From Bacteroidota bacterium (GTDB taxonomy: Bacteria; Bacteroidota; Bacteroidia; Chitinophagales; Chitinophagaceae): a DNA stretch of 64,000 bases. Below are positions 17,265 through 52,138 of the stretch, piece by piece; positions within the stretch are counted from its first letter, which is position 1; each line of letters starts with the position of its first letter. A model generated the notes under the pieces. It made no database searches and was not told the origin of the DNA. It was given only the letters and a program-made list of their open reading frames with translations. The stretch is taken from NCBI GenBank assembly GCA_030706635.1, contig JAUZOD010000017.1, positions 1 to 64,000 of the forward strand, written 5' to 3'. The translations under genes and the position numbers were made by a program.

Positions 17265-17696
17265 ATGGAAAAAAAAGTGGCCATTTTCAGGAAGGAGCAT
17301 TTCAATGCAGCCCATCGTTTGTTCGTTCCCGAATGGTCTGACGAAAAAAACCGCGAGGTGTTCGGCAAGTGCAGTAACCCGCATTATCACGGTCATAACT
17401 ATGAGCTGATTGTGAAAGTTACGGGTGTGCCGGATCCAACAACCGGATATGTGGTTAATCTGTCTGTTTTGTCTGATCTGATCGGAAAGGAGGTGCTGGC
17501 AAAATTCGATCATAAAAACCTGAACCTGGATACGAAGGAGTTCGCCCATCTGAATCCGACCGCAGAAAATATTGTTGTGGTGATTTATGAAATGCTCAGA
17601 AGCAAAATAGATCCGAAGCTGGATCTTTCGGTGAGATTGTATGAAACGGAACGGAATTTTGTGGAATACCCGGTTTCGTTGACGGTTGACGGTTGA
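17265..17696 (+). CDS. 6-pyruvoyl/6-carboxytetrahydropterin synthase family, second copy
   Basis: A 143-residue paralogue of the preceding gene, 29 bp downstream. Ligands are His17, His42 and His44, with Cys36 in the PTPS-like string FGKCSNPHYHGHNYEL; LDHKNLN is represented by FDHKNLNLD, and the C terminus has LYETERNFVEY. The two copies share the same fold and catalytic set but differ clearly, which suggests separate roles (QueD versus a BH4-like pterin enzyme, or subunits of a mixed oligomer). The last seven residues are encoded by a heptad hairpin repeat that begins at 17678, so the native stop codon was probably replaced by the insertion. Confidence 0.9.
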   Translation: MEKKVAIFRKEHFNAAHRLFVPEWSDEKNREVFGKCSNPHYHGHNYELIVKVTGVPDPTTGYVVNLSVLSDLIGKEVLAKFDHKNLNLDTKEFAHLNPTAENIVVVIYEMLRSKIDPKLDLSVRLYETERNFVEYPVSLTVDG

Positions 17697-17751
17697 CCGT
17701 TGACCGCCTTTTATTGCGAATGCGCACCCAAGATCCGTCAACTGTCAACCC
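17678..17751. repeat. Heptad hairpin repeat, copy A
   Basis: Left arm 17678-17706 is four GTTGACN heptads plus G (29 nt); the loop 17707-17734 is 28 nt; the right arm is shortened to 17735-17751. It overlaps the final 19 bases of the second pterin synthase gene and ends 39 bp before folE. Same plan as copies C and D. Confidence 0.85.
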
Positions 17752-17790
17752 TTCATTTCAACGTATTCAACCTAAAACAACCCCCCCACC

Positions 17791-18387
17791 ATGGGATATA
17801 AAAAAATTGAGCACTACGACGAGGCGACCACTTTAAATTTAATGGTCAACTATAAAAATGCCCTGAACCTGCTGGGAGAGAATGCAAACAGGGAAGGGCT
17901 TCAGGAAACGCCCAAAAGGCTGGCTAAAGCCATGCAGTTCCTCACCCAGGGCTATGACCTGGATGCCCATGCCATTCTCAACTCAGCCAAGTTTCATGAG
18001 GATGTGAGTGAGATGATCATCGTGAAAGACATTGAAGTGTATAGTTTGTGCGAACACCACATGCTTCCATTCTTTGGAAAAGCGCATATTGCGTATATCC
18101 CCAATGGCTGGATCACCGGGTTGAGTAAAATTGCCCGTGTTGTGGATGTGTTTGCCCGGCGTCTTCAGGTGCAGGAGCGTTTAACGACGGAGATCCTGCA
18201 TGCGATCCGGGATACCCTGCAGCCGCTGGGTGCGGCTGTGGTGATCGAAGCCTCGCATCTTTGCATGATGATGCGTGGCGTGCAAAAACAGAATTCCGTC
18301 ACCACCACCTCGGCCTTTCACGGAGAATTTCAAAAGAATGAAACACGTAGTGAGTTTATCAAGCTCATTTCAGCAGATCTGGATTAA
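17791..18387 (+). CDS. folE: GTP cyclohydrolase I
   Basis: A 198-residue enzyme that converts GTP to 7,8-dihydroneopterin triphosphate, the shared precursor of folate, BH4-type pterins and queuosine. The zinc and active-site motif [18 protein letters not shown] and the block [23 protein letters not shown] are both complete; the late Cys in [13 protein letters not shown] is also present. It follows the two pterin synthases on the same strand, so substrate maker and users are encoded together. Length is normal for the family. No clear promoter was seen; the heptad hairpin lies between it and the upstream gene. Confidence 0.97.
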
Positions 18388-18530
18388 TGGGATACCCGGA
18401 TCAGGTATCAGACTGTATTTCGTTGCCGGTTGATAGCGGGCCGCGGCGTGTATCCGGACCGCTTCTTAAAATATTCTTTGCTGAATCGGTGCTTTGTGGC
18501 AAATTTGTTTTTTAACCTCCAGTTCTATTT

Positions 18531-19421
18531 ATGAAGCATGCTTATGTTTTCCCCGGACAAGGTTCTCAGTTTCCGGGCATGGGAAAGAATCATTATGATC
18601 AGAGTGCTTTTGCGAAAAGACTATTTGAACAGGGGAATGAAATTGTTGGCTTTCGTCTTTCAGATATCATGTTTCAGGGTTCGGAATCAGACCTGAAGCA
18701 AACGAATGTTACCCAGCCGGCCGTTTTCATGCATTCGGTGATCGCGTATAAAAGTGTGGACGGGGCAAAACCCGAAATGGTTGCGGGGCATTCGCTGGGT
18801 GAATTTTCTGCGCTCGTGGCCAACGGTGTTTTGTCTTTTGAAGACGGACTGCACCTGGTGATCGTTCGGGCAGAAGCGATGCAGAAAGCCTGCATCACGA
18901 ATCCCGGCACCATGGCTGCGGTATTGGCGCTGGATGATGAGGTAGTGGAAAAGATCTGTCTCGAATTACAAAAAGAAACCGGCGAAGTGCTGGTTCCCGC
19001 GAATTATAATTGCCCCGGTCAGTTGGTCGTCAGCGGATCATTAAAAGGCGTTGAGCTGGGTTGCGAAAGGTTGAAAGCGGCAGGTGCACGGCGCGCCGTA
19101 TTGCTTCCGGTGGGTGGCGCATTTCATTCCCCACTGATGGAACCGGCCAGGGAGGAGCTGGCCGCTGCTATTGAAAAAACGACTTTTTATAATCCCACCT
19201 GTCCCGTATATCAGAATGTGGTGGCACGGGCTGTTATGGATAAAGAGGAGATCAAGAAGAATCTGATTGATCAATTGACGGGCCCTGTGCGATGGACCCA
19301 GTCTGTTATGGCTATGATTGCGAATGACGGATCAAATTTCACCGAGATCGGGCCGGGTAAGGTGCTGCAGGGGCTGATCAATAAAATTGATAAAAATGTA
19401 ACCACTTCCGGCGTGGACTAG
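18531..19421 (+). CDS. fabD: Malonyl-CoA:ACP transacylase
   Basis: A 296-residue enzyme that loads malonyl units onto acyl carrier protein for fatty acid synthesis. It begins with the oxyanion-loop motif FPGQGSQFPGMG, has the nucleophile Ser88 in GHSLGEF, and the catalytic His in GGAFHSPLM near residue 198. fabH lies 0.5 kb away on the opposite strand, with an acetyltransferase between. The stop codon overlaps the end of the acetyltransferase gene by 4 bp, tail to tail. Confidence 0.96.
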   Translation: MKHAYVFPGQGSQFPGMGKNHYDQSAFAKRLFEQGNEIVGFRLSDIMFQGSESDLKQTNVTQPAVFMHSVIAYKSVDGAKPEMVAGHSLGEFSALVANGVLSFEDGLHLVIVRAEAMQKACITNPGTMAAVLALDDEVVEKICLELQKETGEVLVPANYNCPGQLVVSGSLKGVELGCERLKAAGARRAVLLPVGGAFHSPLMEPAREELAAAIEKTTFYNPTCPVYQNVVARAVMDKEEIKKNLIDQLTGPVRWTQSVMAMIANDGSNFTEIGPGKVLQGLINKIDKNVTTSGVD

Positions 19422-19885
19422 GGAAGGCCCAGATTGCAGTTCAGCCAGCCGCTCTCTATATTGGCTCCGTATTTCTGATAAAATAAAATGGCGGGTTCGT
19501 TCCAGTCCAGCACCTGCCAGGTCATCCCGTTCAATTGAAGATCCCTGGCTTCCTGCAGTGTTTTTTCGAAGAGCATTTTTCCAATGCCTTTGCCCCGGAA
19601 TTTTTCATTCACAATAAGGTCCTCCAGGTATAGCCGCTGGCCCTTCCAGGTGGAATACCGGATGTAGAAAAGGCTTAGTCCCACTAATTTTTCCTGCTGA
19701 CCCGGTTTGGAAATGGTCGCCACAAAAGCCTGCCATACGGGATTTTTTCCGAATCCGCTTTCTCTGAAATGTTCCAGGGAAACCGTTACGGCGGCTGGCG
19801 CTTTTTCAAAAATGGCCAATTCGCGGACCAGGGCCATCATGTCTGCACAATCGCTGATCACAGCTCTTCTCAGTGTGATTTTCAT
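19418..19885 (-). CDS. GNAT family N-acetyltransferase
   Basis: About 155 residues from ATG 19885; an ATG at 19900 would add five. The GNAT fold is shown by the N-terminal MKITLRRAVISDCADMMALV, the acetyl-CoA P-loop KFRGKGIGKMLFEK and the terminal block WQVLDWNEPAILFYQKYGA. The last block and the early KAPAAV segment resemble diamine (spermidine/spermine-type) acetyltransferases, so a polyamine or small amine substrate is possible. It follows fabH by 27 bp and is probably co-transcribed. Confidence 0.85.
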   Translation of the reverse strand: MKITLRRAVISDCADMMALVRELAIFEKAPAAVTVSLEHFRESGFGKNPVWQAFVATISKPGQQEKLVGLSLFYIRYSTWKGQRLYLEDLIVNEKFRGKGIGKMLFEKTLQEARDLQLNGMTWQVLDWNEPAILFYQKYGANIESGWLNCNLGLP

Positions 19886-19912
19886 CCGCGTTCCTGCCAT
19901 ACCGAAAGCAAT

Positions 19913-20905
19913 TTAATGTCCCCATTTTACCAGGGTGGCTCCCCAGGTGAACCCGCCTCCGAAGGCTGCCAGCACGAGCAGGTCGCCTGATTTTAACTGG
20001 TTCTCCCATTCCCAAAGGCAAAGCGGAATGGTGGCGGCCGTGGTATTTCCAAAGCGCTGGATATTGATCATCACTTTGTCTTCTGACAAACCGATGCGGT
20101 TCGCCGTGGCATCAATGATCCGCTTATTGGCCTGGTGCGGAACGAGAAAAGCGATGTCTTCGCCGGTTAGTTTATTTCGTTTCAGCAGTTCTTCACTCAC
20201 GTCGGCCATCCGGGTGACGGCGAACTTAAAAACGGGTTGTCCTTCCTGGTAGATATAATGTTCTTTTTTGGCCACGGTTTCATAGGAAGGGGGCCTTAAA
20301 GATCCACCGGCTTTCATGTGCAGGTGCACTTTTCCGGCGCCATCACTTTTCAGCAGGCTGTCCTGCACACCGAATCCTTCGTAATTGGGTTCCAGCAATA
20401 CGGCAGCGGCGCCATCGCCGAAAATAATGCAGGTGCTCCTGTCACTATAGTCCACAATGGAACTCATTTTGTCTGCGCCCACTACAACAACTTTTTTATA
20501 GCGGCCGCTTTCAATCAGGGAGGCGCCTGTAGTGAGGCTGTAGAGAAATCCGCAGCAGGCTGCCAACAGGTCAAAGCCCCAGGCATTCACAGCGCCGACT
20601 TTTTCGCAGATGAGGTTGGCGGTTGACGGAAAGAGCATATCGGGTGTAACCGTACCCACCACGATGCAATCTATTTCCGAGGGGTCAATGCCTCTTTTTT
20701 TACAAAGTTCAAGAACCGCCGGAACACAGAGGTCGGAGGTGGCCTGGTTCAGTCCCTTCTGAATCCTTCTTTCGGAAATCCCCGTTCGGGTCCGGATCCA
20801 TTCGTCGTTGGTGTCCACCAGTTTTTCAAGATCGGCATTGGTTAACAGGTCATCCGGTACATAGCCGCCTACAGAGGTGATGGCGGCTGTGATCTTTTGC
20901 GTCAT
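19913..20905 (-). CDS. fabH: 3-oxoacyl-ACP synthase III (KASIII)
   Basis: A 330-residue condensing enzyme that starts fatty acid chains from acyl-CoA and malonyl-ACP. The catalytic Cys lies in FDLLAACCGFLYSL, the His in VPHQANKRII and the Asn in NTTAATIPL, giving the Cys-His-Asn triad. The start at 20905 (MTQKITAAITSVGGY) gives the usual family length; the open frame beyond it to 21118 runs antisense to ruvA and is not coding. It is divergent from ruvA, with 63 bp between start codons and promoter-like elements for both. Confidence 0.95.
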   Translation of the reverse strand: MTQKITAAITSVGGYVPDDLLTNADLEKLVDTNDEWIRTRTGISERRIQKGLNQATSDLCVPAVLELCKKRGIDPSEIDCIVVGTVTPDMLFPSTANLICEKVGAVNAWGFDLLAACCGFLYSLTTGASLIESGRYKKVVVVGADKMSSIVDYSDRSTCIIFGDGAAAVLLEPNYEGFGVQDSLLKSDGAGKVHLHMKAGGSLRPPSYETVAKKEHYIYQEGQPVFKFAVTRMADVSEELLKRNKLTGEDIAFLVPHQANKRIIDATANRIGLSEDKVMINIQRFGNTTAATIPLCLWEWENQLKSGDLLVLAAFGGGFTWGATLVKWGH

Positions 20906-20909
20906 GGAA

Positions 20910-20917
20910 CAAAGATC
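20910..20917 (-). promoter_or_regulatory. -7-like element GATCTTTG before fabH
   Basis: One mismatch to TAnnTTTG, 4-nt gap to the fabH ATG at 20905. Confidence 0.35.
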
Positions 20918-20955
20918 GTGTGTTTTTATAAAATATATACGCGGCTTAAAAATAC

Positions 20956-20963
20956 TATTTTCG
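20956..20963 (+). promoter_or_regulatory. -7 promoter element TATTTTCG before ruvA
   Basis: TAnnTTYG match ending 5 nt before the ruvA ATG at 20969. It decides the ruvA start, because any earlier start would lie upstream of the promoter. Confidence 0.45.
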
Positions 20964-20968
20964 CGGTC

Positions 20969-21553
20969 ATGATCACTTTTCTCCGGGGCGACTTTGTATT
21001 GAAAACACCGGCCATGCTGCATGTGGATGTGCAGGGTGTGGGTTATGAAGTGCAGATCAGTCTGCATACCTTCTCCCAGATGCAGCACCTGGACAAAGGA
21101 TTGCTGCATATCTACCATCAGGTGCGGGAAGACGATGAGATTCTGTACGGATTTTTTGAAACGGGAGAAAAGGAGCTTTTCATCCAGCTGCTGAGTGTTT
21201 CCGGCGTAGGCGCTTCCACTGCCCGGATGATGCTTTCAGCCATGAAACCTGAGGAGCTGGCGCGGGCCATCGTGCAGGGCGAAGTGAAGAAGCTGGAAAG
21301 CATCAAAGGAATCGGTAAAAAATCGGCAGAAAGGATCGTTCTGGAACTGCGGGATAAAGTAGGCAAAAAACTTCACGGATCAAATATTTCCCCATTGATA
21401 AACAATACCTTGGAGCAGGATGCGTTGAATGCTCTGGTGTCCCTGGGTATAGCCCGGCCGGTAGCGGAACAGGCCATTAAAAAACTGGCTTTGAACAACG
21501 CGGGTCCGCAAAAAGCGGAAGATATCATAAAGCAAGTTTTAAAAATCCTTTAG
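20969..21553 (+). CDS. ruvA: Holliday junction branch migration protein RuvA
   Basis: A 194-residue protein that binds four-way junctions and loads the RuvB motor. The N-terminal OB fold begins MITFLRGDFVLKTP and has VGYEVQIS; the two helix-hairpin-helix motifs are LLSVSGVGASTARMML and LESIKGIGKKSAERIVLEL; the C-terminal RuvB-binding domain ends DIIKQVLKIL. The ATG at 20969 gives the standard family start; an open frame up to 20897 is an artefact. The ruvA-sprA order is common in gliding Bacteroidota. sprA starts 42 bp downstream. Confidence 0.96.
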   Translation: MITFLRGDFVLKTPAMLHVDVQGVGYEVQISLHTFSQMQHLDKGLLHIYHQVREDDEILYGFFETGEKELFIQLLSVSGVGASTARMMLSAMKPEELARAIVQGEVKKLESIKGIGKKSAERIVLELRDKVGKKLHGSNISPLINNTLEQDALNALVSLGIARPVAEQAIKKLALNNAGPQKAEDIIKQVLKIL

Positions 21554-21595
21554 CCTATCGTAGGGATCTATACCTAACTAATTCTTGAGGAAAGT

Positions 21596-24500
21596 TTGAC
21601 CCGGTATCTGCTTCAGATTATCACTACCACGGTATGGATTATTGCCGTTTCTGTTGCCTTTCTGGCACCGGCAACCCTGTGTGCGCAGACTCCCCGGGAT
21701 ACTTCCCGACTCCCATTTTCAGATAGCCTTCATTTCCCTATTCATGACCGCCGCGGCGATCCGTTAAGCAATCCGGACCGGAATTCCTTCAACCTGAAAA
21801 ACCCGTCGAACCTGCGGGATTCCATCGAATATGATCCGAAAACCAACCGATACTACCTGATGGAAAAGGTTGGTAATAAATACTTTCGCAAGCCCACCTA
21901 CCTCACGTACGAGGAGTTCCTTAAACTCACCGGCCAGCAGTCGGAAGATGATTATTTCAGGGAGCGTGCAAACATGCTGAGCGAGCTTAACCACAAACTG
22001 GATAAGCCGAAGCTCAATGTAAATGACAACCTGTTCAACCGGCTTTTCGGCAATGGTAAAATTGATATCAAACCTCAGGGCAACGTGGACATACTGGCAG
22101 GTTACCAGGGGCAGAATGTGCAGAACCCGACCCTGCCGGAGAATGCGCGGAAAACAGGCGGACTGGATTTCAACATGGCCGCCAATGTGAATGTGCTGGG
22201 TAATATCGGCAATAAGCTGAAACTGCCCATTTCCTACAATACCCAGGCTACGTTTGACTGGATGAACCAGCTTAAGCTGGAATATACAGGCAGTCCCGAT
22301 GATATCATCAAAAAAATTGAGGTCGGCAATACTTCTTTTACCACCAAAAGCACGCTGATGTCCAGCCAGCAATCCCTGTTTGGTGTCAAGACCCAGCTCC
22401 AGTTCGGAAAATTGTACATCACTGGGGTACTGGCCAGCGAGCGTTCCCAAAGTCAGTCTACTTCCCTCCAGGGAGGCGCTGCCACCACCAACTACCAGTT
22501 TAAGGCGGATGATTATGACGAAAACCGGCACTTCCTGCTGGCGCAGTATTTCCGCGCGAATTATAACAAGGCCATGTCCAACCTTCCCATCGTCACTTCA
22601 CAGGTTCAGATCCTGCGGATCGAAGTGTGGGTGACCAACCGCAATGGCGCTACTACCCAGGCCCGCCAGGTGGTTGGCTTAATGGATCTGGGGGAAACAA
22701 ATCCTTATAATACCAATGTGCATCCCCAGACCGGGTTACCCTACCCATCAAATGATGCCAACGATCTTTATCGCCGGATCATCAACGATCCGTCCAGCAG
22801 GAGCTCAGACCAGGTGATCAGCAAACTGACTTCCGTGGGCCTTACCCAGGTACAGGATTATGAACAGGTGTATGCCCGCAAACTCAACGCCACAGACTAT
22901 ACCTTTAATCCTCAGGTCGGGTTTATTTCACTGAACCAGGTGCTGCAACCCAATGATGTGCTGGCTGTGGCTTACCAGTACAGTTTCAACGGCAAGATCT
23001 ACCAGGTCGGTGAATTTTCCCAGGACGTTCCACCCGATACCACACGGGGGTTTAACCCGGGTGCGCAAAAAGTGATCTATCTGAAATTGCTGAAAGCCAC
23101 GTCCCAGCGGACCAACCTTCCCATCTGGAACCTGATGATGAAGAACGTGTACACCCTGAAAACAGGAACGGGCACCTATCTTTCCAATATCCAGCAGGCG
23201 GGCTTTCAAATGAATGTATTGTTTGATGAGCCGAGCAAAGGCACCAAAAGATACCTGCCTGCAGGTGATAAAGAAGGCATTCCCTTAATATCGGTGCTTA
23301 ACCTGGACAGGTTGAATGCGCACAACGATCCCCAGCCGGATGGCGTATTTGACTACCTGGAAGGATTCACCATCGTCTCGTCGCAGGCCAGGATCATCTT
23401 TCCCCTCCTGGAACCTTTCGGGCGGGACCTGGATTCCCTGGCATTCCACAACAGTCAGAGCATTAAAGGCAGTTATATTTTTCAGCAGCTTTATGATACC
23501 ATCAAATCGGTGGCGCAAACTTTTGCCAATGTGGACCGGTACTATATCAGCGGCGTAGCCAAGGGACAGACCAGCACGGATGTTTCCCTCGGCGCCTTCA
23601 ACGTGCCACCGGGATCGGTTGTCGTGACCGCCGGCGGCCAAACGCTACGGGAGAATATTGACTACGTGGTGGATTACAACAATGGTACGGTGAAAGTAAT
23701 CAATCAGGCAATCCTCAATTCCGGTGTGCCGGTGAATGTGCAGTATGAAAATAATGCCAGTTACGGAACACAGCAAAGGGGATTCATGGGTTTGCGGCTC
23801 GACTATCTCGCCAAGAGCACCGCCACCCAGTCGCTGACTCTCGGCGGTACGATTGAAAGATTGAATGAGCGTCCTTTTTTTACCAAAACAAATTATAACG
23901 AAGATCCGATCCGCAATACCATGTACGGAGCAGATGCCAACTTCCGTTCGCAATGGCCGGGACTGACGCGTTTGATGAATAAGCTTCCTTTTTATTCTTC
24001 CCGCGAAGTGAGTACCATCAGCGCAGTAGGAGAAGCGGCATTCCTGAAGCCTGGTCATCCACCGCAGATTGGCAAGGGAAACAGCGGGGTTATTTATATA
24101 GATGATTTTGAAGGATCCACCAGTTCCATTGATCTGCGCTTTCCGCTCACCAGCTGGGCCCTGGCTTCCACGCCGGCGGGCGACGGGCTTTTCCCGGAAG
24201 GCAGCCTCAATAATTCCCTGGATTACGGGTTCAACCGTTCCAAGATTGCCTGGTATAATATCGAACCCACCCTGCAGGATAAAACCAATTCGGCCAATCC
24301 GGTCCGGGATTACGAAAATTTTGGCGATCCGAGGATCTCGCCCATTAATATCCAGCAACTGTTTCCACAAATCACACCGGAATTCGGCCAGGCACAGCTG
24401 ATCACTTTCGATGTTGCTTACTATCCTTCCGAAAAGGGACCTTATAATTTTGACGCCCGCCCGGGCAGCCTCCTGCCGGATGGGAAACTGGCCAATCCGC

Positions 24501-27500
24501 AGAACCGCTGGGGTGGTATCATGCGATCCATAGACCAGACAGACTTTGAAACCAGCAATGTGCAGTATGTTGAATTCTGGATGCAGAGTCCCTTCCTGAC
24601 CAATCCCGGTGGCAGCGGGGGACAATTATATTTTGATCTGGGCAGTGTATCGGAAGATATCCTAAAGGATGGAAGAAGACTTTTTGAAAACGGGTTAAAC
24701 ACGCCCTCCAGTCCCGCCGCCGTAGACAGCACTTCTGTGTGGGGAAGGGCGCCGGCCAACCAGATCCAGGTAACCAATGCCTTCAGCAATGATCCGGGAG
24801 ACCGCCCTTACCAGGATGTGGGTTTTGACGGACTGGATGATGCCGGCGAGCAATCCAAATTTTCCAATTACCTCGCCAAGCTGGCGGCTGCTTACGGAAC
24901 CGGCTCCGCCGTTTATCAGAAAGCTGCTGGCGATCCATCCGGCGATGATTTTCTCAATTACCGCGATCCTTCTTACGACCAGTCGAAAGCAGGTATCCTT
25001 GACCGTTATAAAAACATAAACAGTCCCCAGGGCAATTCGCCGATTGCTTCCGGCAATTCAACCTACGTGAACGCGTACACGCTTTATCCCGATCAGGAAG
25101 ATCTTGATCACGATAATACCATGAACGAGCTGGAAGAGTATTTTGAATATAAAGTAAACCTCGTGCCATCCCAGCTTGCGGTGGGGCAGAACTTCGTTTC
25201 CGATAAGAGGGATTTTGTCGGAAGCAACGGAGTTCCCCAAACCTGGTACCAGTTCCGGATTCCGATCAACGCCTACACCCAGAAAGTGGGGAATATCCCG
25301 GATTTTAAATCCATCCGGTTCATCCGTATGTTCCTGACCGGTTTTACGGATTCCGTGGTATGCCGCTTTGCAGAATTCCAGCTGATCCGGGATTCCTGGC
25401 GCAATTTCAATTATGAACTGGATACCACGGGGCAGTATATCACCATTCCCGCGAACACCCCGACGGATTTCAATGTAACGGCCGTGAACATCGAGCAGAA
25501 CGGTTCGAGAACGCCCGTACCTTATGTGATTCCGCCGGGCATTCAACGTCAGCAGCAGCTCAGTACCAATAATGTAAACCTTTTGCTAAATGAACAGGCA
25601 CTGAGTTTACAGATCTGTAATCTGGCCAAGGGCGATGCCCGCGGCGTATTTAAAAATACCAACCTGGATCTGAGACGTTATGGAACCATGGATATGTTCA
25701 TTCACGCGGAAGGCGCCGGAATTATAGATAATCTAAACGATAACGATCTCTATGCGGTGATCCGTTTAGGGAGTGATTTCATCAATAATTTTTACGAGGT
25801 TAAAATTCCATTACGGAAAACGAGGTGGGGGGCAACGATCGACACCGATATCTGGCCGGATTCCAATAACCTGAACCTGAACCTGGATAAACTTATTCAA
25901 TTGAAGACCGACCGGAATGCGTCGGGAAGCTCAACGCTGTATTACCAGGAGATTGATTCGGCAACCCACCGGTCTTATGCCATAGTGGGTAATCCGAATA
26001 TCGGACAGGTGCAGGCCTTTTTCCTGGGTGTGCAGAATGCGAGCCAGAACAGCGTCTGCACCGAAGTGTGGTTTGATGAACTCAGGTTATCGAATATCAA
26101 TGACCAGGGTGGATATGCCGCTACCGGCCGGGTGGATCTGAAGATTGCCGACTTCGGCACCATGTACATGTCTGGCAGTTTCCGTTCCGTGGGCTTCGGA
26201 AGTATTGATCAGAGCATCAACCAGCGTTCGCTGAGCAACAACACCCAGCTGGACGCAGCCACGAACCTCGAGCTTGGAAAACTGCTTCCTAAAACCACAG
26301 GCCTGTCTATTCCTTTTTATGCCAGCGTTTCCAAGAGCATCAGTGCGCCGGAATATGATCCCTACGACCTGGATATTAAACTCAAGGATAAAATCGCTGC
26401 GGCTACAACCAGGGCGCAAAAAGATTCCATCCGGAATCAGGCGATAGATGCTACGACCATATCCACTTTCAATTTCACCAATGTCAGAAAAAATAATACT
26501 TCCGGAAAAAAACTCAAACTCTGGAGCCTTGAAAACTTCGACCTGAGTTATTCCTATACGCGATCGGACCATCACAATCCCATCGCCAGTGAAGACAACC
26601 TGATTAACTATAAAGCGGGCCTGGGATATAATTTTACAGGATTGCCCAAATACTGGGAGCCATTCAAAAAAATGATCAGGTCCAAGAGTCCCTGGTTCAA
26701 ACTCGTCAAGGATTTCAACCTGAACCCCGTTCCTGCGGTACTCACTTTCCGGGCGGATGTGAATCGACAGTTTGGCGCCTACCGATCGCGGAATCTTGAC
26801 GGTGGCAAAGAAGTTCTTCCGGAAACCTTTAATAAATTTTTTACGTTCGACAGGTTATATGTTGTGCGCTGGGACGTCACGCGATCGTTCAACGTGGATT
26901 TCAGTGCGACCAATAAAGGCTGGGTGGATGAGGACAGCGGAAGGCTGGACAAAGCGGGAAGGAAAGACATGTGGAAGAATTTCTGGAAAGGCGGAAGAAC
27001 AATCCACTATCAGCAAACGGCGAATTTTACTTACACCGTTCCCACCAATAAAGTGCCGGCGCTTGACTGGACAAATTTCAGGCTCGGGTACGGATCTTCT
27101 TATCAGTGGACTGGCGCGTCCACGCTGGCCACGGATCTGGGTAATGCCCTTCAGAACACGCAGCAGAAGGTTGTTACCGGCGACCTTAATTTTTCCAGAC
27201 TGTACAGTAAATGGCGATTGTTACGTGAACTGGATCAGCAGGCCTCTCCGAATGCCCCCTCTTTGCCTGGCAAAAAGGTTGACAGCAGCAAGCAAAAACG
27301 ATCGGCCATAGAAAGCGGCGACCAGAAACATCTGTCGGGTATCATGAAAAGTGTCGCCCGGCTGCTGACCTCTTTAAAGGATGTAACGATCAATTATTCG
27401 GAAAATTCTGCTTCCAGCATTTATGGGTATAAAGACAGTACCCAGGTGTTGGGTATGGATCTTAAATCGGGAGAACCAGGCTTCGGCTACATCTTTGGTG

Positions 27501-28801
27501 AACAGCCCGACACGGGATATGTGAACCGCCTGGGTAAAAAAGGACTGCTCACCACCGATACCTTATTTAATTTTCAGAATCAGGCCAGTTATAATCAGAT
27601 ACTCACCCTGGCAGCTCAGATCCAGCCCATAAAAGATCTGAATATAACGGTTAATGTAAACAAGAGCTTTGGTAAGAATTATACGGAACTGTATAAGGAT
27701 ACTGCCGGCAGCAATACTTTTGCGCGGTTAAATCCGTACACGGCGGGAAGTTTCAGCATCAGTTTTATTTCCGTGAAAACATTGTTCGGTGGTTTTAAGC
27801 CGAATGAAGTGACTTCCACGTTCAAAACTTTTGAAAGCTACCGGCAGATCATTTCCAGCAGGCTGGGTAATCAGAATCCTTATTCAGGCGGAGCCACTAC
27901 GGCAGACGGTTACGCCAAGGGATACGGGAAGTATGCACAGGATGTGCTGATTCCGGCCTTTATTGCCGCCTACAGCGGCAAGAGCCCCGATAAAATTGCA
28001 TTGATCAATGAAGACAATCCCAACATTAAATTCAATCCGTTCTCCGGCTACCTGCCCAAGCCGAACTGGCGGATCACCTACAATGGACTAAGCCGCATAC
28101 CCGGCATGGATAAAATATTTACCAATTTCAGTGTCAGCAATGGATATACGAGTACACTCAGCATGAACAGTTTCAATACTGCGCTTACTTATCAGGATCC
28201 ATTCGGAATCCGTCAGCCGGGATTCATTGATACGCTGACGGGAAATTTTGTTCCTTATTTTCTGGTTCCGAATATTTCCATCAGCGAGCAATTTTCACCG
28301 TTGATTGATCTGGATATGCAATTTGTAAATCAGTTGCTGGCTAAATTCAGTTACAGCAAATCCAGGCAGCTGAGTCTGAGCCTGATTGACTACCAGATGA
28401 GTGAAACCCGTTCAACGGAATATACAGTCGGGCTGGGATTTCGTAAACGGGGCCTTCCGCTTCCTTTTAAGTTAACCCTTCCGGGCAAGAACGGGCCCTC
28501 GGGCAGGCTGGAGAATGACCTCACCCTCAGGCTGGACGTAAGCTACCGGGATGATGCCACCTCCAATAGTTATCTCGATCAGAACGACGCGCTTCCGGTC
28601 GGCGGTCAGCGGGTGGTGAGCATCTCACCTTCGATTGACTATGTGATCAACAACCGCATCAATATTAAATTCTATTTTGATCAGCGGAAAACGGTGCCCA
28701 AGATTTCGAGTTCTCCGCCGGTATCCACCACAAGGGGAGGTATCCAGATCAGGATCTCTCTGGCAGAAGTGGCTGCGGGAAAACCGAAGGCGACGAAATA
28801 G
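21596..28801 (+). CDS. sprA: Type IX secretion translocon protein SprA
   Basis: A 2401-residue outer-membrane protein, the giant beta-barrel pore of the type IX secretion system, also called Sov. An N-terminal signal peptide ends near LCAQ. Early blocks match the family: RDSIEYDPKTNRYYLMEKVG, LTYEEFLKLT and the plug-type region GNIGNKLKLPISYNTQATF, followed by long alternating strands and GFDGLDDAGEQSKFSNYL-like loops, ending in a barrel strand rich in RISLAEV. The start is a TTG at 21596, preceded by an SD-like GAGGA; no ATG near it preserves the signal peptide. It exports proteins such as the CHU_C-domain protein at 30371-32989. A heptad repeat begins right after the stop. Confidence 0.97.
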   Translation: MTRYLLQIITTTVWIIAVSVAFLAPATLCAQTPRDTSRLPFSDSLHFPIHDRRGDPLSNPDRNSFNLKNPSNLRDSIEYDPKTNRYYLMEKVGNKYFRKPTYLTYEEFLKLTGQQSEDDYFRERANMLSELNHKLDKPKLNVNDNLFNRLFGNGKIDIKPQGNVDILAGYQGQNVQNPTLPENARKTGGLDFNMAANVNVLGNIGNKLKLPISYNTQATFDWMNQLKLEYTGSPDDIIKKIEVGNTSFTTKSTLMSSQQSLFGVKTQLQFGKLYITGVLASERSQSQSTSLQGGAATTNYQFKADDYDENRHFLLAQYFRANYNKAMSNLPIVTSQVQILRIEVWVTNRNGATTQARQVVGLMDLGETNPYNTNVHPQTGLPYPSNDANDLYRRIINDPSSRSSDQVISKLTSVGLTQVQDYEQVYARKLNATDYTFNPQVGFISLNQVLQPNDVLAVAYQYSFNGKIYQVGEFSQDVPPDTTRGFNPGAQKVIYLKLLKATSQRTNLPIWNLMMKNVYTLKTGTGTYLSNIQQAGFQMNVLFDEPSKGTKRYLPAGDKEGIPLISVLNLDRLNAHNDPQPDGVFDYLEGFTIVSSQARIIFPLLEPFGRDLDSLAFHNSQSIKGSYIFQQLYDTIKSVAQTFANVDRYYISGVAKGQTSTDVSLGAFNVPPGSVVVTAGGQTLRENIDYVVDYNNGTVKVINQAILNSGVPVNVQYENNASYGTQQRGFMGLRLDYLAKSTATQSLTLGGTIERLNERPFFTKTNYNEDPIRNTMYGADANFRSQWPGLTRLMNKLPFYSSREVSTISAVGEAAFLKPGHPPQIGKGNSGVIYIDDFEGSTSSIDLRFPLTSWALASTPAGDGLFPEGSLNNSLDYGFNRSKIAWYNIEPTLQDKTNSANPVRDYENFGDPRISPINIQQLFPQITPEFGQAQLITFDVAYYPSEKGPYNFDARPGSLLPDGKLANPQNRWGGIMRSIDQTDFETSNVQYVEFWMQSPFLTNPGGSGGQLYFDLGSVSEDILKDGRRLFENGLNTPSSPAAVDSTSVWGRAPANQIQVTNAFSNDPGDRPYQDVGFDGLDDAGEQSKFSNYLAKLAAAYGTGSAVYQKAAGDPSGDDFLNYRDPSYDQSKAGILDRYKNINSPQGNSPIASGNSTYVNAYTLYPDQEDLDHDNTMNELEEYFEYKVNLVPSQLAVGQNFVSDKRDFVGSNGVPQTWYQFRIPINAYTQKVGNIPDFKSIRFIRMFLTGFTDSVVCRFAEFQLIRDSWRNFNYELDTTGQYITIPANTPTDFNVTAVNIEQNGSRTPVPYVIPPGIQRQQQLSTNNVNLLLNEQALSLQICNLAKGDARGVFKNTNLDLRRYGTMDMFIHAEGAGIIDNLNDNDLYAVIRLGSDFINNFYEVKIPLRKTRWGATIDTDIWPDSNNLNLNLDKLIQLKTDRNASGSSTLYYQEIDSATHRSYAIVGNPNIGQVQAFFLGVQNASQNSVCTEVWFDELRLSNINDQGGYAATGRVDLKIADFGTMYMSGSFRSVGFGSIDQSINQRSLSNNTQLDAATNLELGKLLPKTTGLSIPFYASVSKSISAPEYDPYDLDIKLKDKIAAATTRAQKDSIRNQAIDATTISTFNFTNVRKNNTSGKKLKLWSLENFDLSYSYTRSDHHNPIASEDNLINYKAGLGYNFTGLPKYWEPFKKMIRSKSPWFKLVKDFNLNPVPAVLTFRADVNRQFGAYRSRNLDGGKEVLPETFNKFFTFDRLYVVRWDVTRSFNVDFSATNKGWVDEDSGRLDKAGRKDMWKNFWKGGRTIHYQQTANFTYTVPTNKVPALDWTNFRLGYGSSYQWTGASTLATDLGNALQNTQQKVVTGDLNFSRLYSKWRLLRELDQQASPNAPSLPGKKVDSSKQKRSAIESGDQKHLSGIMKSVARLLTSLKDVTINYSENSASSIYGYKDSTQVLGMDLKSGEPGFGYIFGEQPDTGYVNRLGKKGLLTTDTLFNFQNQASYNQILTLAAQIQPIKDLNITVNVNKSFGKNYTELYKDTAGSNTFARLNPYTAGSFSISFISVKTLFGGFKPNEVTSTFKTFESYRQIISSRLGNQNPYSGGATTADGYAKGYGKYAQDVLIPAFIAAYSGKSPDKIALINEDNPNIKFNPFSGYLPKPNWRITYNGLSRIPGMDKIFTNFSVSNGYTSTLSMNSFNTALTYQDPFGIRQPGFIDTLTGNFVPYFLVPNISISEQFSPLIDLDMQFVNQLLAKFSYSKSRQLSLSLIDYQMSETRSTEYTVGLGFRKRGLPLPFKLTLPGKNGPSGRLENDLTLRLDVSYRDDATSNSYLDQNDALPVGGQRVVSISPSIDYVINNRINIKFYFDQRKTVPKISSSPPVSTTRGGIQIRISLAEVAAGKPKATK

Positions 28802-28933
28802 TTGATGGTTGATAGTTGATGGTTGATGGGAGATCCTGTGGCGCAAATTGCGAAAGAATCGGGGTCCTTTGTTTCGGTTGACAGTTGACAGTTGACGGTT
28901 GACCGACTTCAGGTGCGAATCCGGAATATATAA
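28802..28933. repeat. Heptad hairpin repeat, copy B (composite, truncated)
   Basis: Just after the sprA stop come TTGATGG/TTGATAG heptads (28802-28830). At 28877-28905 a full 29-nt arm of GTTGACN heptads is followed by a loop in reverse orientation (18 of its first 18 bases match the complement of the copy C loop). The loop ends at 28933 and the second arm is missing; the stop codon of the next gene starts at 28934. Confidence 0.75.
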
Positions 28934-29452: not shown

Positions 29453-29580
29453 CAGAGGGATTTATAAACGGACTCGATGACAAAATACACAATCCTTTTG
29501 GAGGATGCAAGTGGGGGAAACCCTTAGGGGGGTTGACGGTCAACAAAGCTTCTTCGAACAATAAAACAAGTCAACAAACG

Positions 29581-37864: not shown

Positions 37865-37950
37865 GTTGACGGTTGACAGTTGACGGTTGACGGCCTTTTA
37901 TTTCGGATTCGCACCTGAAGTCCGTCAACCGTCAACTGTCAACCGTTATC
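37865..37950. repeat. Heptad hairpin repeat, copy C
   Basis: The clearest copy. Left arm 37865-37893 (29 nt, four GTTGACN heptads plus G), loop 37894-37921 (28 nt) and right arm 37922-37950. The innermost 25 bp of the stem (37869-37893 with 37922-37946) pair perfectly. It lies between the promoter of dprA and the 3' end of the PorE-like gene, where it could stop transcription. Confidence 0.9.
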
Positions 37951-41456: not shown

Positions 41457-41464
41457 CAAAGTTA
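41457..41464 (-). promoter_or_regulatory. folD promoter -7 element TAACTTTG
   Basis: Perfect TAnnTTTG with a 4-nt gap to the folD ATG. Confidence 0.6.
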
Positions 41465-41555
41465 ATTCCATCCCGTGTTAAAACCTCATTAGTCAGGTCA
41501 TTTTACGTTAATTCCGGACTGTCCTCAGGTTTAATTTTACGAAGAGGGCCGGAAT

Positions 41556-44473: not shown

Positions 44474-44608
44474 AAGTTTTCCGTGTTTTGCAGCGTAATG
44501 GAACCGGAGATTGTCTAGCTTTATACGGGCTGAATATTTAACAATTTTTTTTGTCAGATATAAAAGTTCCCTAATTTACACGCTCTAAATTCATAAACTC
44601 ACATTCAC

Positions 44609-47848: not shown

Positions 47849-47868
47849 AAGAAAAAAAGAAATTTATC

Positions 47869-49377
47869 ATGAACCGAACAAGAATAAATTTATCCGTCAC
47901 ATTGCTATCGTTTTTCTGCCTGCTGATTGGAGCAGGCTGTAAGCAACAGTTGGATATTAATCAGAACCCCAATTTCCCAACGCTGGGTCAGGGAAAACCT
48001 TCGCTCGTCTTACCTGCTGCCGTCCTGTCCACTACCGGGAAGGTGGGTGCGGATCTGGCCATTGTAGGCGGTATCTGGGCGCAGTATTTTACTGAATCAG
48101 CCGTAGCGAGCCAATACAAACAGGTGGATGCTTATAATTTGCAGAACACCGATAATTTTGTCAATGATGTGTTTGATAATATGTATTCATTCGGGCTTAA
48201 GAATTATCAATTTGTGATCGATGAGTCGAAAGTGGCTGAAGACTGGAACACAGTACTGATCGCTACCGTGATGAAAGCCTATACGGCTGGCATACTGGTT
48301 GACATGTATGACAAAATTCCCTATTCTGAGGCCCTGCAAGGAGCGGCAAATCTCAAACCCAAGTTTGATGACGGATATGATGTTTATACTTCCCTGCTCA
48401 GCAGTATTGATTCTGCATTAAGCAATGATTTCAGTGCGGGAACCAATACCAATCTCGGAACCCAGGACCTGGTGTTTGGGGGAGATATGAGTCAGTGGAT
48501 ACTTTTTGCCAATACACTTAAATTGAAGTTTTACCTGCGGATGATTAACGCCCATCCGGATGTTGCCCAGGCAGGTATCCAGGCCATGTTGACCGCGGGT
48601 ACCCCCTTCCTGACAACCGACGCGGCGGTTACCAATTTCAGCGATGCCCCCAGTCAGGATAATCCATTCTGGGAATGGAATAAGCGGACGCTGAATACTG
48701 GAGATAACCTGAAAGCCAGCGGAACGTTTGTTTTGTGGCTGGAAGCGAATAATGACCCCCGGATTGTAAGTTATTTCGGAAAAACTACCCCTGACTACGT
48801 AAACCAGGGTGATTTTAGCGGTGCTGGTGCTCATCCTTCTTACCTCACAGCTGCAAATTTTGTTCAGTCTCCTACTGATCCGGTAGAATTTATTTCAGCG
48901 GCGGAGTCTTATTTCATGCAGGCAGAAGCGCAAGTGCGTTATGGTGATCCGGCTTCGGCAAAACCACTTTATGATTTGGGGGTACAGACCGCCTTTTCAT
49001 ATCTTGGACTTGATGGCACGTCATTCACAGGTGCCGGAGGTAAATACGAATGGGGAAATGAAATAGAAGATGGCGCTGCATTGACCCCCATTCAACAAAT
49101 TATCCGGCAAAAATGGGCATCCTTCCCTTATGGATGTCATCAGATTGAAGGTTTCTTTGATAAAAACAGAACGGGTTTCCCTTTGACCAGTCCGGTTTAT
49201 TCAACTTCAACAAACCCCGCTTATATTCCCGGTCAGTTTGTCATCAGCGCAAACTCTGTTTTGGATCCGGGATTACTGCCCAAAAGATTTGTATATCCTT
49301 ATGACGAAACGTCCCGTAATTCCAACGCGCCACAAACTCTTGTTCCCATGTCAACCCCCGTATGGTGGGCCCTGTAA
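47869..49377 (+). CDS. SusD/RagB family nutrient-binding lipoprotein
   Basis: A 502-residue surface lipoprotein forming the lid of the SusC transporter. The signal peptide has the lipobox LIGAGC with Cys24. The TPR-rich helical fold is shown by blocks such as VMKAYTAGILVDMYDKIPYSEAL and YFMQAEAQVRYGDPASAKPLY. The motifs fit the SusD-like 2 group rather than classical SusD. It starts 20 bp after susC. The ligand is unknown. Confidence 0.95.
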   Translation: MNRTRINLSVTLLSFFCLLIGAGCKQQLDINQNPNFPTLGQGKPSLVLPAAVLSTTGKVGADLAIVGGIWAQYFTESAVASQYKQVDAYNLQNTDNFVNDVFDNMYSFGLKNYQFVIDESKVAEDWNTVLIATVMKAYTAGILVDMYDKIPYSEALQGAANLKPKFDDGYDVYTSLLSSIDSALSNDFSAGTNTNLGTQDLVFGGDMSQWILFANTLKLKFYLRMINAHPDVAQAGIQAMLTAGTPFLTTDAAVTNFSDAPSQDNPFWEWNKRTLNTGDNLKASGTFVLWLEANNDPRIVSYFGKTTPDYVNQGDFSGAGAHPSYLTAANFVQSPTDPVEFISAAESYFMQAEAQVRYGDPASAKPLYDLGVQTAFSYLGLDGTSFTGAGGKYEWGNEIEDGAALTPIQQIIRQKWASFPYGCHQIEGFFDKNRTGFPLTSPVYSTSTNPAYIPGQFVISANSVLDPGLLPKRFVYPYDETSRNSNAPQTLVPMSTPVWWAL

Positions 49378-49393
49378 TTTAAAAAAAGATAAA

Positions 49394-50068
49394 ATGAAAA
49401 TAACTTTTTCATCATTCATTGTCCTCTTATTTGTTGCCGGAATGTTTTCCTGTAAGAAGGATAATTTCAATTACCCAAAGGGTACCGTGGCAGGATCAAA
49501 AATTATCTATTTTCCCACTATTGCCATCAAAGAGGATAAGTTTGTGGCTGTTACTCAGGGAGCCGGCTATGCTGATTCCGGGGCTACTGCTATTTTGAAC
49601 GGAACTCCGGTAACGTATACAACCAGCATGACTATTGATGCAAATACTGCTCCGGGCGTTTACAGGATCAATTATACGGCTGTCAACGCTGAAGGGTATA
49701 GTGCCAGTGATGCCCGTGTTGTTGTGGTGGTTCCTACTGCAGTTGCTGCTGACCCTGTTGTTGCAGCGAACGATTTTTCCGGTACTTATTTAAGGGCTGC
49801 TACCGGAGTTACCAGTACCTGGACCAAAATCGCCAACGGTGTATATACTGTTGAAAATCCCGGAGGTAGTTCTGGTGTTGGGTTAAGAGTCATCGTGACA
49901 AATTATTCTGGAACCAGTATTGATATGCCGTCCCAGGATAGTCCCGATTTCGGTGGAACCGTTAGCAGCACAGGTGCTACTTATAATACAACTCCGCCAG
50001 CCACATATAGCTGGGTATTTAATGCACCGGGTTATGGCACATCAACAAGGACTTTTGTAAAACAATAA
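49394..50068 (+). CDS. Surface lipoprotein with DUF5011-like immunoglobulin fold
   Basis: A 224-residue lipoprotein from ATG 49394 (signal ending GMFSC, Cys20). The middle contains a bacterial Ig-like unit with the phrase YADSGATAILNGTPVTYTTS and PGVYRINYTAVNAEGYSAS, as in DUF5011-type domains; the C-terminal half is a separate strand-rich domain (TYLRAATGVTSTWTKI). Such proteins often accompany SusC/D pairs as extra ligand-binding or surface-glycan-binding parts. An open frame begins at 49238 inside susD, but without a signal peptide at that end. It starts 16 bp after susD. Confidence 0.85.
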   Translation: MKITFSSFIVLLFVAGMFSCKKDNFNYPKGTVAGSKIIYFPTIAIKEDKFVAVTQGAGYADSGATAILNGTPVTYTTSMTIDANTAPGVYRINYTAVNAEGYSASDARVVVVVPTAVAADPVVAANDFSGTYLRAATGVTSTWTKIANGVYTVENPGGSSGVGLRVIVTNYSGTSIDMPSQDSPDFGGTVSSTGATYNTTPPATYSWVFNAPGYGTSTRTFVKQ

Positions 50069-50078
50069 AATTCTAATC

Positions 50079-50570
50079 ATGCGAAAAATATTGACGATAT
50101 CGTTAATCTTCTTTACGGGGATTTATTTCTTGTCTTCCTGTAAAAAAAGTTCTTACGATCCGGGCACCACGAAATCGCCGAATGCTTCAAACGGCTGGTG
50201 GGTGACTTATTCTGTAGGCGGAGCTCCGATATATGGCCCTGTTTTTTTCAGTACTTACAACACCGCTGCCGATAAGGCGGATTCCATGTGGATTGACGAT
50301 CTTCAGAATTTCTGGCAGTTTAAAGGCAAGGTGGCGCTGGATTATAAGACTCTCACATTTAGTAATCCGAGTTGTCAAAATGTATATTATACTTCAGATG
50401 CAAAGGTTGCCAATGGAAAGATCCTGACAAAGGGCGGTCATTCGAAAAGCGGAGTCATAACAGATAGTATCTATTTTGAAATTCAGTTTTCTGATGATAC
50501 CACGCCGTATGGAACCACATATCAGGTCAGTGGCACGGCAAGAACAGGATTTATTGAAGATGACTACTAA
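50079..50570 (+). CDS. Small lipoprotein, possible lipid-binding (Lipid_bd-like) family
   Basis: A 163-residue lipoprotein (Cys21 in FLSSCKK) with a compact domain: GWWVTYSVGGAPIYGPVFFS, ADSMWIDDLQNFWQFKGKV, then CQNVYYTSDAKVANGKIL. The pattern resembles the lipid-binding-like proteins found at the ends of SusCD operons in Bacteroidota. It is the last gene of the operon, 10 bp after the previous one, and a strong terminator follows. The ligand is unknown and the family call is moderately sure. Confidence 0.78.
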   Translation: MRKILTISLIFFTGIYFLSSCKKSSYDPGTTKSPNASNGWWVTYSVGGAPIYGPVFFSTYNTAADKADSMWIDDLQNFWQFKGKVALDYKTLTFSNPSCQNVYYTSDAKVANGKILTKGGHSKSGVITDSIYFEIQFSDDTTPYGTTYQVSGTARTGFIEDDY

Positions 50571-50599
50571 AATAAACGGGCATGCTAACCGCTTAATAA

Positions 50600-50628
50600 A
50601 AAAAGACCTTCCGCTGGAGGGTCTTTTT
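50600..50628 (+). terminator. Rho-independent terminator of the susCD operon
   Basis: Arms AAAAAGACC and GGTCTTTTT are perfect complements, extended inward to a 13-bp stem with one G-T pair and a GCT loop. The 3' arm ends in a T run. It lies 30 bp after the last lipoprotein gene. Confidence 0.85.
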
Positions 50629-50666
50629 ATTTTGCGCATGATGTCGGCCGGTGTTTGATGAAATTG

Positions 50667-50674
50667 TACTTTTG
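50667..50674 (+). promoter_or_regulatory. -7 promoter element TACTTTTG
   Basis: Perfect TAnnTTTG, 20 nt before the ATG at 50695. The identical octamer stands before the glycosyltransferase (63041-63048). Confidence 0.55.
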
Positions 50675-50694
50675 AGGTATTAAAACATATCTGA

Positions 50695-51003
50695 ATGGCA
50701 GAGCCGGCAAATAATCAGTTAAACATAGAGATCAGCGAGGAAGTTGCAGAAGGTGAATATGCTAACCTGGCCATCATCACGCACAGCCATGCGGAGTTCG
50801 TCATTGACTTTGTTAACGTAATGCCGGGGACTCCAAAGAGTAAGGTCAAGTCCCGCATCATCTTCACTCCCCAGCATGCCAAGCGTTTTATGAAAGCCCT
50901 CATGGAGAATGTGAGTCGTTTCGAAACGGCTAACGGGAAAATACAAGACCTGGAAGACGTTCAGATTCCCATGAATTTCGGCGGCCCAACGGCACAGGCC
51001 TGA
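50695..51003 (+). CDS. DUF3467 domain protein
   Basis: A 102-residue cytoplasmic protein matching DUF3467: EGEYANLAIITHSHAEFVIDFVNVMPG and ARIIFTPQHAKRFMKAL-like central blocks, here SRIIFTPQHAKRFMKAL. The family is highly conserved among Bacteroidota and has no firm function; a ribosome-side or housekeeping role is suggested by conservation only. It is monocistronic, with its own promoter and the susCD terminator before it. Confidence 0.9.
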   Translation: MAEPANNQLNIEISEEVAEGEYANLAIITHSHAEFVIDFVNVMPGTPKSKVKSRIIFTPQHAKRFMKALMENVSRFETANGKIQDLEDVQIPMNFGGPTAQA

Positions 51004-51025
51004 CCAGGGTGTAACCGACCGGTAT

Positions 51026-51718
51026 TTACATCATCCCCGAATCTGCAAAACTGAAATAGCCCTCATGGCTTACAATGATATGGTCAATCACCTTAATGTC
51101 CAGGTATTTGGCGGCCTCCCTGATCTTATAGGTAAGATCCTCATCCGCTTTGCTGGGCCTGAGATTTCCGGAAGGATGATTATGACAAAGGATCACATTC
51201 ACCGCATGCGTTTCCAGCGCCTTTTTTAAGATCACCCTCGGATCTGCAACCGTTCCGGTGATCCCTCCCCGGCTGACCACCTCAAAATGGTTCACCCGGT
51301 TGGCCTGATTCAGGAATAATACGGCGAAAACTTCCCGGCTATTGTCCTGCAGGGTCACCCGGAGCCAGTCGGCGACCTGACGGCTATCCCGGATGACCGG
51401 CTTATCGAGAGCCCCCATGGTATGCCGACGGCGGCCCAATTCCATCGCAGCTAAGATCACCACCGCTTTCACCGGGCCTATACCCTTAATTTTCAGCAGG
51501 TCATGAATGCTGAGCTTACCCAGTTCATTCAGGTTGTTTTTTACGGAAAATAATAGTTCCTTGGCCAGATCTACCGCATTTTTTTCGTGCGTTCCCTGAT
51601 TGATCAGGATGGCCAGCAACTCAGAATCGGTGAGGTTTTCCGCATTTTTACTAAGTAACTTTTCGCGGGGCCTGTCATCCGCCGCCCAGGTCTTAATTGA
51701 GTAGTTTTGCGCTTGCAT
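51026..51718 (-). CDS. radC: RadC family JAB domain protein
   Basis: A 230-residue UPF0758/RadC protein. The N-terminal helix-hairpin-helix (LSIHDLLKIKGIGPVKAVVIL) precedes a JAB1/MPN metalloprotease-like fold with the zinc motif CHNHPSGNLRPSKADED. The family was named for DNA repair, but its role in repair is doubtful; many members accompany mobile DNA. The gene converges on the DUF3467 gene with 22 bp between stops. Confidence 0.92.
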   Translation of the reverse strand: MQAQNYSIKTWAADDRPREKLLSKNAENLTDSELLAILINQGTHEKNAVDLAKELLFSVKNNLNELGKLSIHDLLKIKGIGPVKAVVILAAMELGRRRHTMGALDKPVIRDSRQVADWLRVTLQDNSREVFAVLFLNQANRVNHFEVVSRGGITGTVADPRVILKKALETHAVNVILCHNHPSGNLRPSKADEDLTYKIREAAKYLDIKVIDHIIVSHEGYFSFADSGMM

Positions 51719-51831
51719 GCTTCAATGATAGGCACTATTTTTATGCCTTACAATCCCTGTTCGTGGTATATTTCGGCAAGGGCCGGGCTACCCGCACCGG
51801 TATCCTAAATTGAAAATCTAATTTAATATCC

Positions 51832-52035
51832 ATGAAACCGAAATCTACACTCTCTGCCATTGGCGGCTGGAACTCCTTCTTCTTCTGCATTGGTATGTAC
51901 CTGGTTGCTTTATTCTTTTCCATTTTTGTTTGTTCGTCTATCTTTTATGTGGTGAACAGCAATAAGCAGTCAGAAAAAAATACCTATACCGTTAAGTCGA
52001 CCGCAAAGCCTGAACTCGCTTCACTTAACAAGTAA
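51832..52035 (+). CDS. Small single-span membrane protein
   Basis: A 67-residue protein with one hydrophobic span (about 14-42: FFFCIGMYLVALFFSIFVC and onwards) and a Lys/Ser-rich tail (SEKNTYTVKSTAKPELASLNK). The amino acid pattern and the clean start after an AT-rich leader support a real gene. No family is recognised. A heptad hairpin follows 17 bp downstream. Confidence 0.6.
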   Translation: MKPKSTLSAIGGWNSFFFCIGMYLVALFFSIFVCSSIFYVVNSNKQSEKNTYTVKSTAKPELASLNK

Positions 52036-52052
52036 ATTTTTCTAAACTTTTT

Positions 52053-52138
52053 GTTGACGGTTGACTGACGACGGTTGACGGCCTTTGTGTGCGAATCCGC
52101 ACCTGAATTCCGTCAACCGTCGTCGGTCAACCGTCAAC
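52053..52138. repeat. Heptad hairpin repeat, copy D
   Basis: Left arm 52053-52081 and right arm 52110-52138 pair at 28 of 29 positions; the loop 52082-52109 is 28 nt and shares 21 of 28 bases with the copy C loop. It sits between the small membrane protein gene and the prs promoter. Confidence 0.9.

Follow-up and report, generated by a model that had tools for sequence, protein, structure and literature searches.

A dispersed family of heptad-built hairpins in a Chitinophagaceae genome, with signs of probable DNA template switching between the arms

The window analysed here, a 64,000-nucleotide (nt) stretch of contig JAUZOD010000017.1 from a bacterium of the Chitinophagaceae, contains an element made of GTTGACN heptads, in which two complementary arms flank a conserved core. 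The element also recurred elsewhere in the same genome (G000; 4.58 Mb in 162 contigs), and we compared its sites with those of two related drafts, G006 and G019, the latter fragmented, with stretches of N inside or next to some elements. We give somewhat better than even chances to the view that this is a DNA-level, dispersed, non-coding palindromic family whose arms are kept matched by template switching and not by RNA pairing.

Four copies in the window had been described in an earlier sequence-only reading as hairpins with a fixed 29-28-29 plan. Copy C (37865-37950, plus strand) fits this plan. Its arms (37865-37893 and 37922-37950) enclose a 28-nt loop, the core at 37894-37921, and pair at 27 of 29 positions, of which 25 form one run as had been noted. 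It sits 13 nt beyond an OmpA-family gene, and the predicted fold has an energy of -55.4 kcal/mol. Copy D (52053-52138, plus strand; arms 52053-52081 and 52110-52138, 28-nt core 52082-52109) lies 17 nt beyond an uncharacterised open reading frame (ORF) of 67 amino acids, pairs at 28 of 29 positions and has a predicted fold of -66.6 kcal/mol. The change shared by both of its arms was confirmed as GACGAC on one side and GTCGTC on the other. The matching site in G019 (L159:2399) has a nearly identical core (identity 0.93) between different arms. Copy A (17678-17763, plus strand) overlaps the stop codon of a PTPS gene (17265-17696) with its left arm of four heptads (17678-17706), followed by the core (17707-17734) and the right arm (17735-17763). 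The layout is again 29-28-29, but pairing reaches 17 of 29 positions, since the right arm retains only two pairing heptads (to 17749).

The arrangement at B was different. A direct GTTGATN array (28801-28829, plus strand) begins at the stop of an SprA-family gene (21596-28801), and a second array of GTTGACN units (28877-28903) runs in the same direction and carries half a core, past which the DNA is unrelated. B is therefore no hairpin but a minus-strand half-element (28877-28929) that consists of a single heptad arm and the core half reading CACCTGAA, lacks a partner arm, and lies beside a direct array that is not its arm. A further short motif, GTTGACGGTCAAC at 29532-29544 (no strand assigned), is a collapsed remnant in which both arms are fused without the core; the matching site in G006 carries a full element (L177:6712). 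The proposed plan describes C and D, and A in layout, but not B, nor the stems of the family at large, which range from 12 to 36 nt.

The family proved real and far more numerous than four copies. Within the window, GTTGACNGTTGAC was matched 28 times with at most two mismatches against 3.16 expected, and none of 100 shuffles reached 28. In the whole genome it gave 162 + 118 matches, compared with 27 + 9 for a control pattern read backward. BLAST with copy C returned 81 matches, many places being scored on both strands, and a covariance model at least 149 on both strands together. A profile search of 580 kb around the G000 copies located 85 places, 74 of them at least 60 nt long, and seven more core matches lay outside the sequence read. 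The core pattern itself, allowing three mismatches, was found 29 times in G000 and never when read backward, which bears out the conserved core noted earlier. Elements were collected from 157 places. Three were dropped because they were too close to the end of a locus, and a core score of 12 was passed by 137 of the remaining 154 (a score of 13 by 130).

The general plan of a copy is three to four GTTGACN heptads, an asymmetric core of about 30 nt and three to four GTCAACN heptads. The core consensus from 104 elements in the three genomes was GACTTTAATTGCGAATTCGCACCTGAAATC, and its halves are imperfect mirror images, with CACCTGAA on one side and TTTTATT or a similar string opposite in many copies. 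Among 133 elements, the stem beyond the core was most often 28 nt (41 elements), 21 nt (17) or 22 nt (14), and the lengths grouped at 28, 21-22 and 14-15. In 94 of the 133 the length was a multiple of seven or one more, in support of the suggested growth by heptad steps. Arm heptads of the types GTTGAC, GTTGAT and GATGAC numbered 232, 51 and 36 in G000, 53, 94 and 0 in G006, and 50, 75 and 0 in G019, so the arm motifs vary by genome. A mixed class of GTATAT, GTGGAT and GTAGAT heptads was common to the three (37, 34 and 6, respectively). Two unusual arrangements were seen in G000. At L076 6699-6873 (C120:21198-21372), the core and right arm are stacked about three times in tandem at a spacing of about 50 nt. 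At L081 1680-1770 (C76:48680-48769), about 13 pure GTTGACA units form an array without a hairpin, as expected of slippage.

Of 58 genomes, eight contained a 20-nt heptad pattern, and all eight belong to a single genus. In two of them, G025 and G026, the backward control was equally high, but the covariance model gave 45 matches in G025. The core (at most three mismatches) was more restricted among 33 genomes of the genus, with 29 matches in G000, five in G006, four in G019 and one in G007, the last without heptads when read. Loops differing in length and sequence, or arms varying without pairing, which had been named as refuting the earlier reading, did not characterise G000, G006 and G019; the loci of other carriers contained heptad hairpins around different cores.

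Evidence on how the stems are maintained came from changes in the two arms. The arms were more alike within an element (identity 0.801) than between elements (0.718, standard deviation 0.007 and maximum 0.737 in 300 shuffles). A mirror test at the outer offsets was uninformative because the arms differ in length, and heptad tests were substituted. Over 130 elements, heptads matched better in mirror order (0.8011 versus 0.7735), with none of 2000 random orders equalling this value. The result was repeated in the 77 elements whose right arm is heterogeneous (0.7681 versus 0.7309; 0 of 2000). Taken singly, 11 elements had the true order as the strict best and 84 as a tie, and in 35 some other order scored higher, so that only the mean was clearly shifted.

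Comparison of G000, G006 and G019 gave 53 matched pairs of sites with an element in both genomes, covering 81 elements, some of them shared between pairs. In the 33 pairs that showed at least 70% pairing in both genomes, 70 of 693 positions had changed on both arms with pairing kept, where 2-6 would be expected under independent change. These double changes comprised 33 in 16 G000-G006 pairs, 26 in seven G000-G019 pairs and 11 in ten G006-G019 pairs. As 33 of the 70 came from the G000-G006 pairs, the result did not depend on the fragmented G019. At L076:906 the arms are of the GTTGAC type in G000 and of the GTATATG/GTGGATG type in both relatives. The both-arm change of copy D, read earlier as a sign of selection or of repeated copying of the fold, is therefore general in the family.

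Such changes could also be ordinary compensatory substitutions in a functional RNA hairpin, such as a terminator, a protection of the mRNA 3' end or an RNase III site, and the strong predicted folds of C and D and the gene context lend this some appeal. Genes were called with a simple in-house caller. None of 137 elements lay wholly within a called gene. The distance from an element to a gene 3' end was at most 30 nt in 122 of 142 cases (median 7), with an overlap in 27, and the distance to a 5' end was this short in 28 of 116 cases (median 49). The elements fell between tandem genes in 74 cases, convergent genes in 34, divergent genes in 21 and at a locus edge in eight. Element-free gaps of at least 100 nt in the same loci comprised 141 tandem, 98 divergent and 26 convergent gaps (total 265), so convergent gaps were favoured by the family. 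The position at gene 3' ends, proposed for the four window copies, was confirmed for them, but 21 elements of the family lie between divergent called genes. Copy D is counted among these 21 because the 67-amino-acid ORF was not called. This ORF (51832-52035, plus strand) contains a hydrophobic stretch and matched a CcoQ model weakly, with an E value of 0.17, far below the cut-off.

The finer features of the elements did not agree with an RNA function. In tandem contexts the core was oriented along transcription in 42 cases and opposed to it in 32, with no clear bias. Mismatches on the transcribed strand were G-U in 51 cases and A-C in 64, with no excess of G-U. A T-tract after the stem (at least five T in 8 nt on the right) was present in 14 of 133 elements, and the other combinations of flank and base gave 12-17. 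On these three grounds selection on an RNA hairpin is not favoured, and a terminator or strand-specific RNA was rejected. A known RNA family was rejected as well, a single tRNA being the sole Rfam match in the window at the gathering threshold. RNA pairing was not supported as what maintains the stem. Together with the elements between divergent genes, these results make the RNA hairpin an improbable explanation of the family.

The orientation of the core gave a second indication. It could be assigned confidently on both sides in 28 of the 53 matched pairs, and the cores agreed in 18 and were opposite in 10. In several flipped pairs the flanks could be aligned to the base and contained no N (L242/L266, L169/L154, L176/L149). 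The both-arm changes and the in-place core flips fit DNA template switching, and the traces of such fold-back copying are clear on the arms and likely on the core. Template switching combined with slippage is the likely source of the matched arms, the mirror order, the inverted spacers, the 7-nt steps and the collapsed sites. A replicating strand would switch template and copy one arm from the other, which would keep the arms matched, and slippage would lengthen or shorten them by 7-nt steps. A switch across the spacer would leave the core flipped, and a deletion between the arms would leave remnants. New copies may arise by a DNA route, either with the help of a transposase acting in trans or by ectopic copying from one element to another. 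They would survive mainly just behind stop codons, the place of least harm.

Several observations weigh against template switching as the explanation. Nine of the ten core flips involve the fragmented G019, in which some elements contain or adjoin N runs (9 of 16 G019 pairs, compared with one of 12 G000-G006 pairs), and short reads are poor at resolving 86-nt palindromes. That the flips are assembly errors is doubtful but must be given some weight; the flipped pairs without N and with base-exact flanks do not fit it, nor does the one flip between G006 and G000. The core identity of matched pairs was 0.71 in the same orientation and 0.70 when flipped, barely above the 0.66-0.69 of random cross-genome pairs, and some pairs could therefore be independent arrivals. 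In the 33 filtered pairs, 130 further changes affected one arm alone and broke the pairing, and the 70% filter itself favours paired outcomes. In some elements, such as the G019 match to copy D (L159), one whole arm is of a different motif than the other. Selection for a DNA palindrome would likewise keep arms matched, and gain and loss are not separable site by site in these data.

Such selection might act on a protein-binding DNA site, recognised by a nucleoid protein or a recombinase. The conserved core half GCACCTGAA, the retention of sites across genomes (53 matched pairs) and the lack of strand bias would agree with this. However, the arm letters were replaced wholesale while the site persisted, and remnants or absence were frequent, with 30 one-sided comparisons and no hairpin in 21 of 26 unique element-free matched intervals. 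We regard a protein site as rather unlikely.

Some matched sites without a full element held a single arm, or two arms fused without the core. These sites indicate that copies are lost, and they are probably gained as well. L128, a G000 copy whose core is perfect, is missing from both G006 and G019. An apparent clean insertion at L117:6917 was rejected, as the site had looked empty in both relatives but has a half-element in G019 and a heptad remnant in G006. The idea that matched sites stay periodic palindromes whatever their motif was not supported in general, with another hairpin in 5 of the 26 element-free intervals compared with 41 of 337 control gaps. L146 of G000, where the three genomes have three different palindromes at the matched site, remains a single striking case.

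With regard to spread, the elements might be miniature inverted-repeat transposable elements (MITEs) or repetitive extragenic palindromic (REP) sequences moved in trans by a transposase, with the heptads as terminal repeats. This possibility, which concerns spread and is compatible with template switching in the arms, is suggested by the structured, extragenic copies, by the asymmetric, nearly identical dispersed cores (eight G000 copies are identical over 22 specified bases) and by the absence of one of these eight, L128, from both relatives. Target duplications of at least 3 nt, counted as exact matches adjoining the stem, were found in 3 of 133 elements against a shuffled mean of 2.7, and the ends vary at heptad steps. 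The Y1_Tnp domain of REP-associated tyrosine transposases (RAYT) was absent from G000, G005, G006, G015, G017 and G019, five of these six being drafts 58-86% complete, and no search for DDE transposases was made. The seventh carrier, G025, has two Y1_Tnp. With none in six of seven carriers, most of them incomplete drafts, and with four and two in G009 and G007, genomes without the GTTGAC pattern, mobilisation by RAYT was rejected. For Y2_Tnp, a search of 15 genomes found nothing, the control genomes included, and was uninformative. Mobilisation in trans is accordingly possible but not our expectation. The REP/MITE-like character noted earlier was upheld to the extent that the family is dispersed, extragenic and biased to gene 3' ends, with no transposase seen in a search that did not cover the DDE type. 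As vehicles, phages were rejected for want of any match and plasmids because one plasmid record matched heptads only, over 30 nt; three viral contigs had the core pattern without heptads and were read as chance.

The family is best described as REP-like palindromes made of heptameric repeats. Heptameric simple sequence repeats were reportedly the subject of a study by Mrazek in 2007, as cited by later papers. No description of the present family was recognised among the papers listed in searches of the open-licence literature, as judged by titles and the beginnings of abstracts. To the extent covered by the accounts available, REPs (GTAG- and CGTC-tagged) are likewise many-copy extragenic palindromes, and the CGTC type, apparently without a dedicated transposase, is present in Bacteroidetes among other phyla (PMC3733652). 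They measure 20-40 bp (PMC3733652), whereas the heptad element is about 86 nt long with arms of repeated heptads and stem letters that vary within one genome. No constant unpaired GTAG or CGTC end tag was seen on the heptad elements, although tetranucleotides were not counted. In the 8 nt on either flank A and T predominated, C making up 9% on the left and G 9% on the right, a poor fit to a fixed tag. Heptameric simple sequence repeats are described as intergenic 7-nt units whose length and sequence vary at one site between relatives, for which slippage was proposed, with some inverted arrays reported in Xanthomonas (PMC4679880, PMC4692102). The present family shares the 7-nt intergenic units and this variation but, unlike the repeats in those descriptions, has its heptads arranged as two pairing arms that enclose a conserved core found at dispersed sites.

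The proposed mechanism also has parallels in the accounts we consulted. Template switching homogenises the arms of inverted repeats and inverts their spacers in yeast (PMC8604942), a related case concerns RNA stems (PMC8794818), and hairpin loops of plastids flip-flop (PMC6342102). These systems resemble the heptad family in its homogenised arms and in its apparent spacer inversion in place. The template-switching cases, as described there, are scattered single sites with inversions of a few bases, whereas the heptad family is a dispersed bacterial repeat with a spacer of about 30 nt.

The heptad hairpins were accompanied by other palindromes of short units. As the loci were chosen for holding family copies, the following period and hairpin counts do not represent genome-wide rates. 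Stretches of period 7 within the first 1.02 Mb of loci numbered 204 in 160 kb of intergenic sequence (43 after masking of the family) and 12 in 899 kb of coding sequence; among other intergenic periods, 4-6 and 9-10 gave none and period 8 gave 46. Period 7 was seen in 122 of 142 family hairpins. Strong hairpins outside the family in 1.42 Mb had period 7 in 19 cases, period 8 in 22 and period 11 in two, and 16 had no period. The 22 period-8 hairpins were AATGTGNN/AATTTGAA palindromes (L082, L113, L115, L116, L121, L133 and others in G000; L149, L152 and L166 in G019), and the same genomes hold AATGTG octad, AAAAGTA heptad and GTTATGA heptad palindromes. Separately, the window contains a 37-nt inverted repeat unrelated to the heptad family (11494-11530 and 11722-11758), 97% complementary with 191 nt between the arms.

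Nine of ten further genomes of the genus, sampled at 20-40 kb each, had no such hairpin. The exception, G014, gave no match to the GTTGAC pattern but had 18 strong hairpins in 40 kb (L294, L295): two of period 7, four of period 8 and 12 without a period, two of these with N runs. Some consisted of CTTTGCGT, TTTTGAGA, ACAAGGT or GGTGTAA units. Four genomes outside the genus, represented by small samples of 10 kb each, gave one hairpin in all. This on/off pattern among genus genomes, again from small samples, raises the tentative and rather improbable idea that some of them, and not others, have a peculiarity of replication or repair, such as an enzyme or a polymerase habit, which builds intergenic palindromes from 7- and 8-nt units, with GTTGAC as the most copied product. 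The patchy occurrence of these palindromes within one genus would then offer a route to the gene responsible.

Since one copying event can alter both arms, compensatory changes in a repeat hairpin are not proof of selection on RNA, and the present family is a warning that they need not imply it. With dozens of matched sites at which the copying of arms, the inversion of spacers and the collapse of hairpins are legible, the family constitutes a natural, many-copy record of apparent template switching in bacteria and of slippage by heptads.

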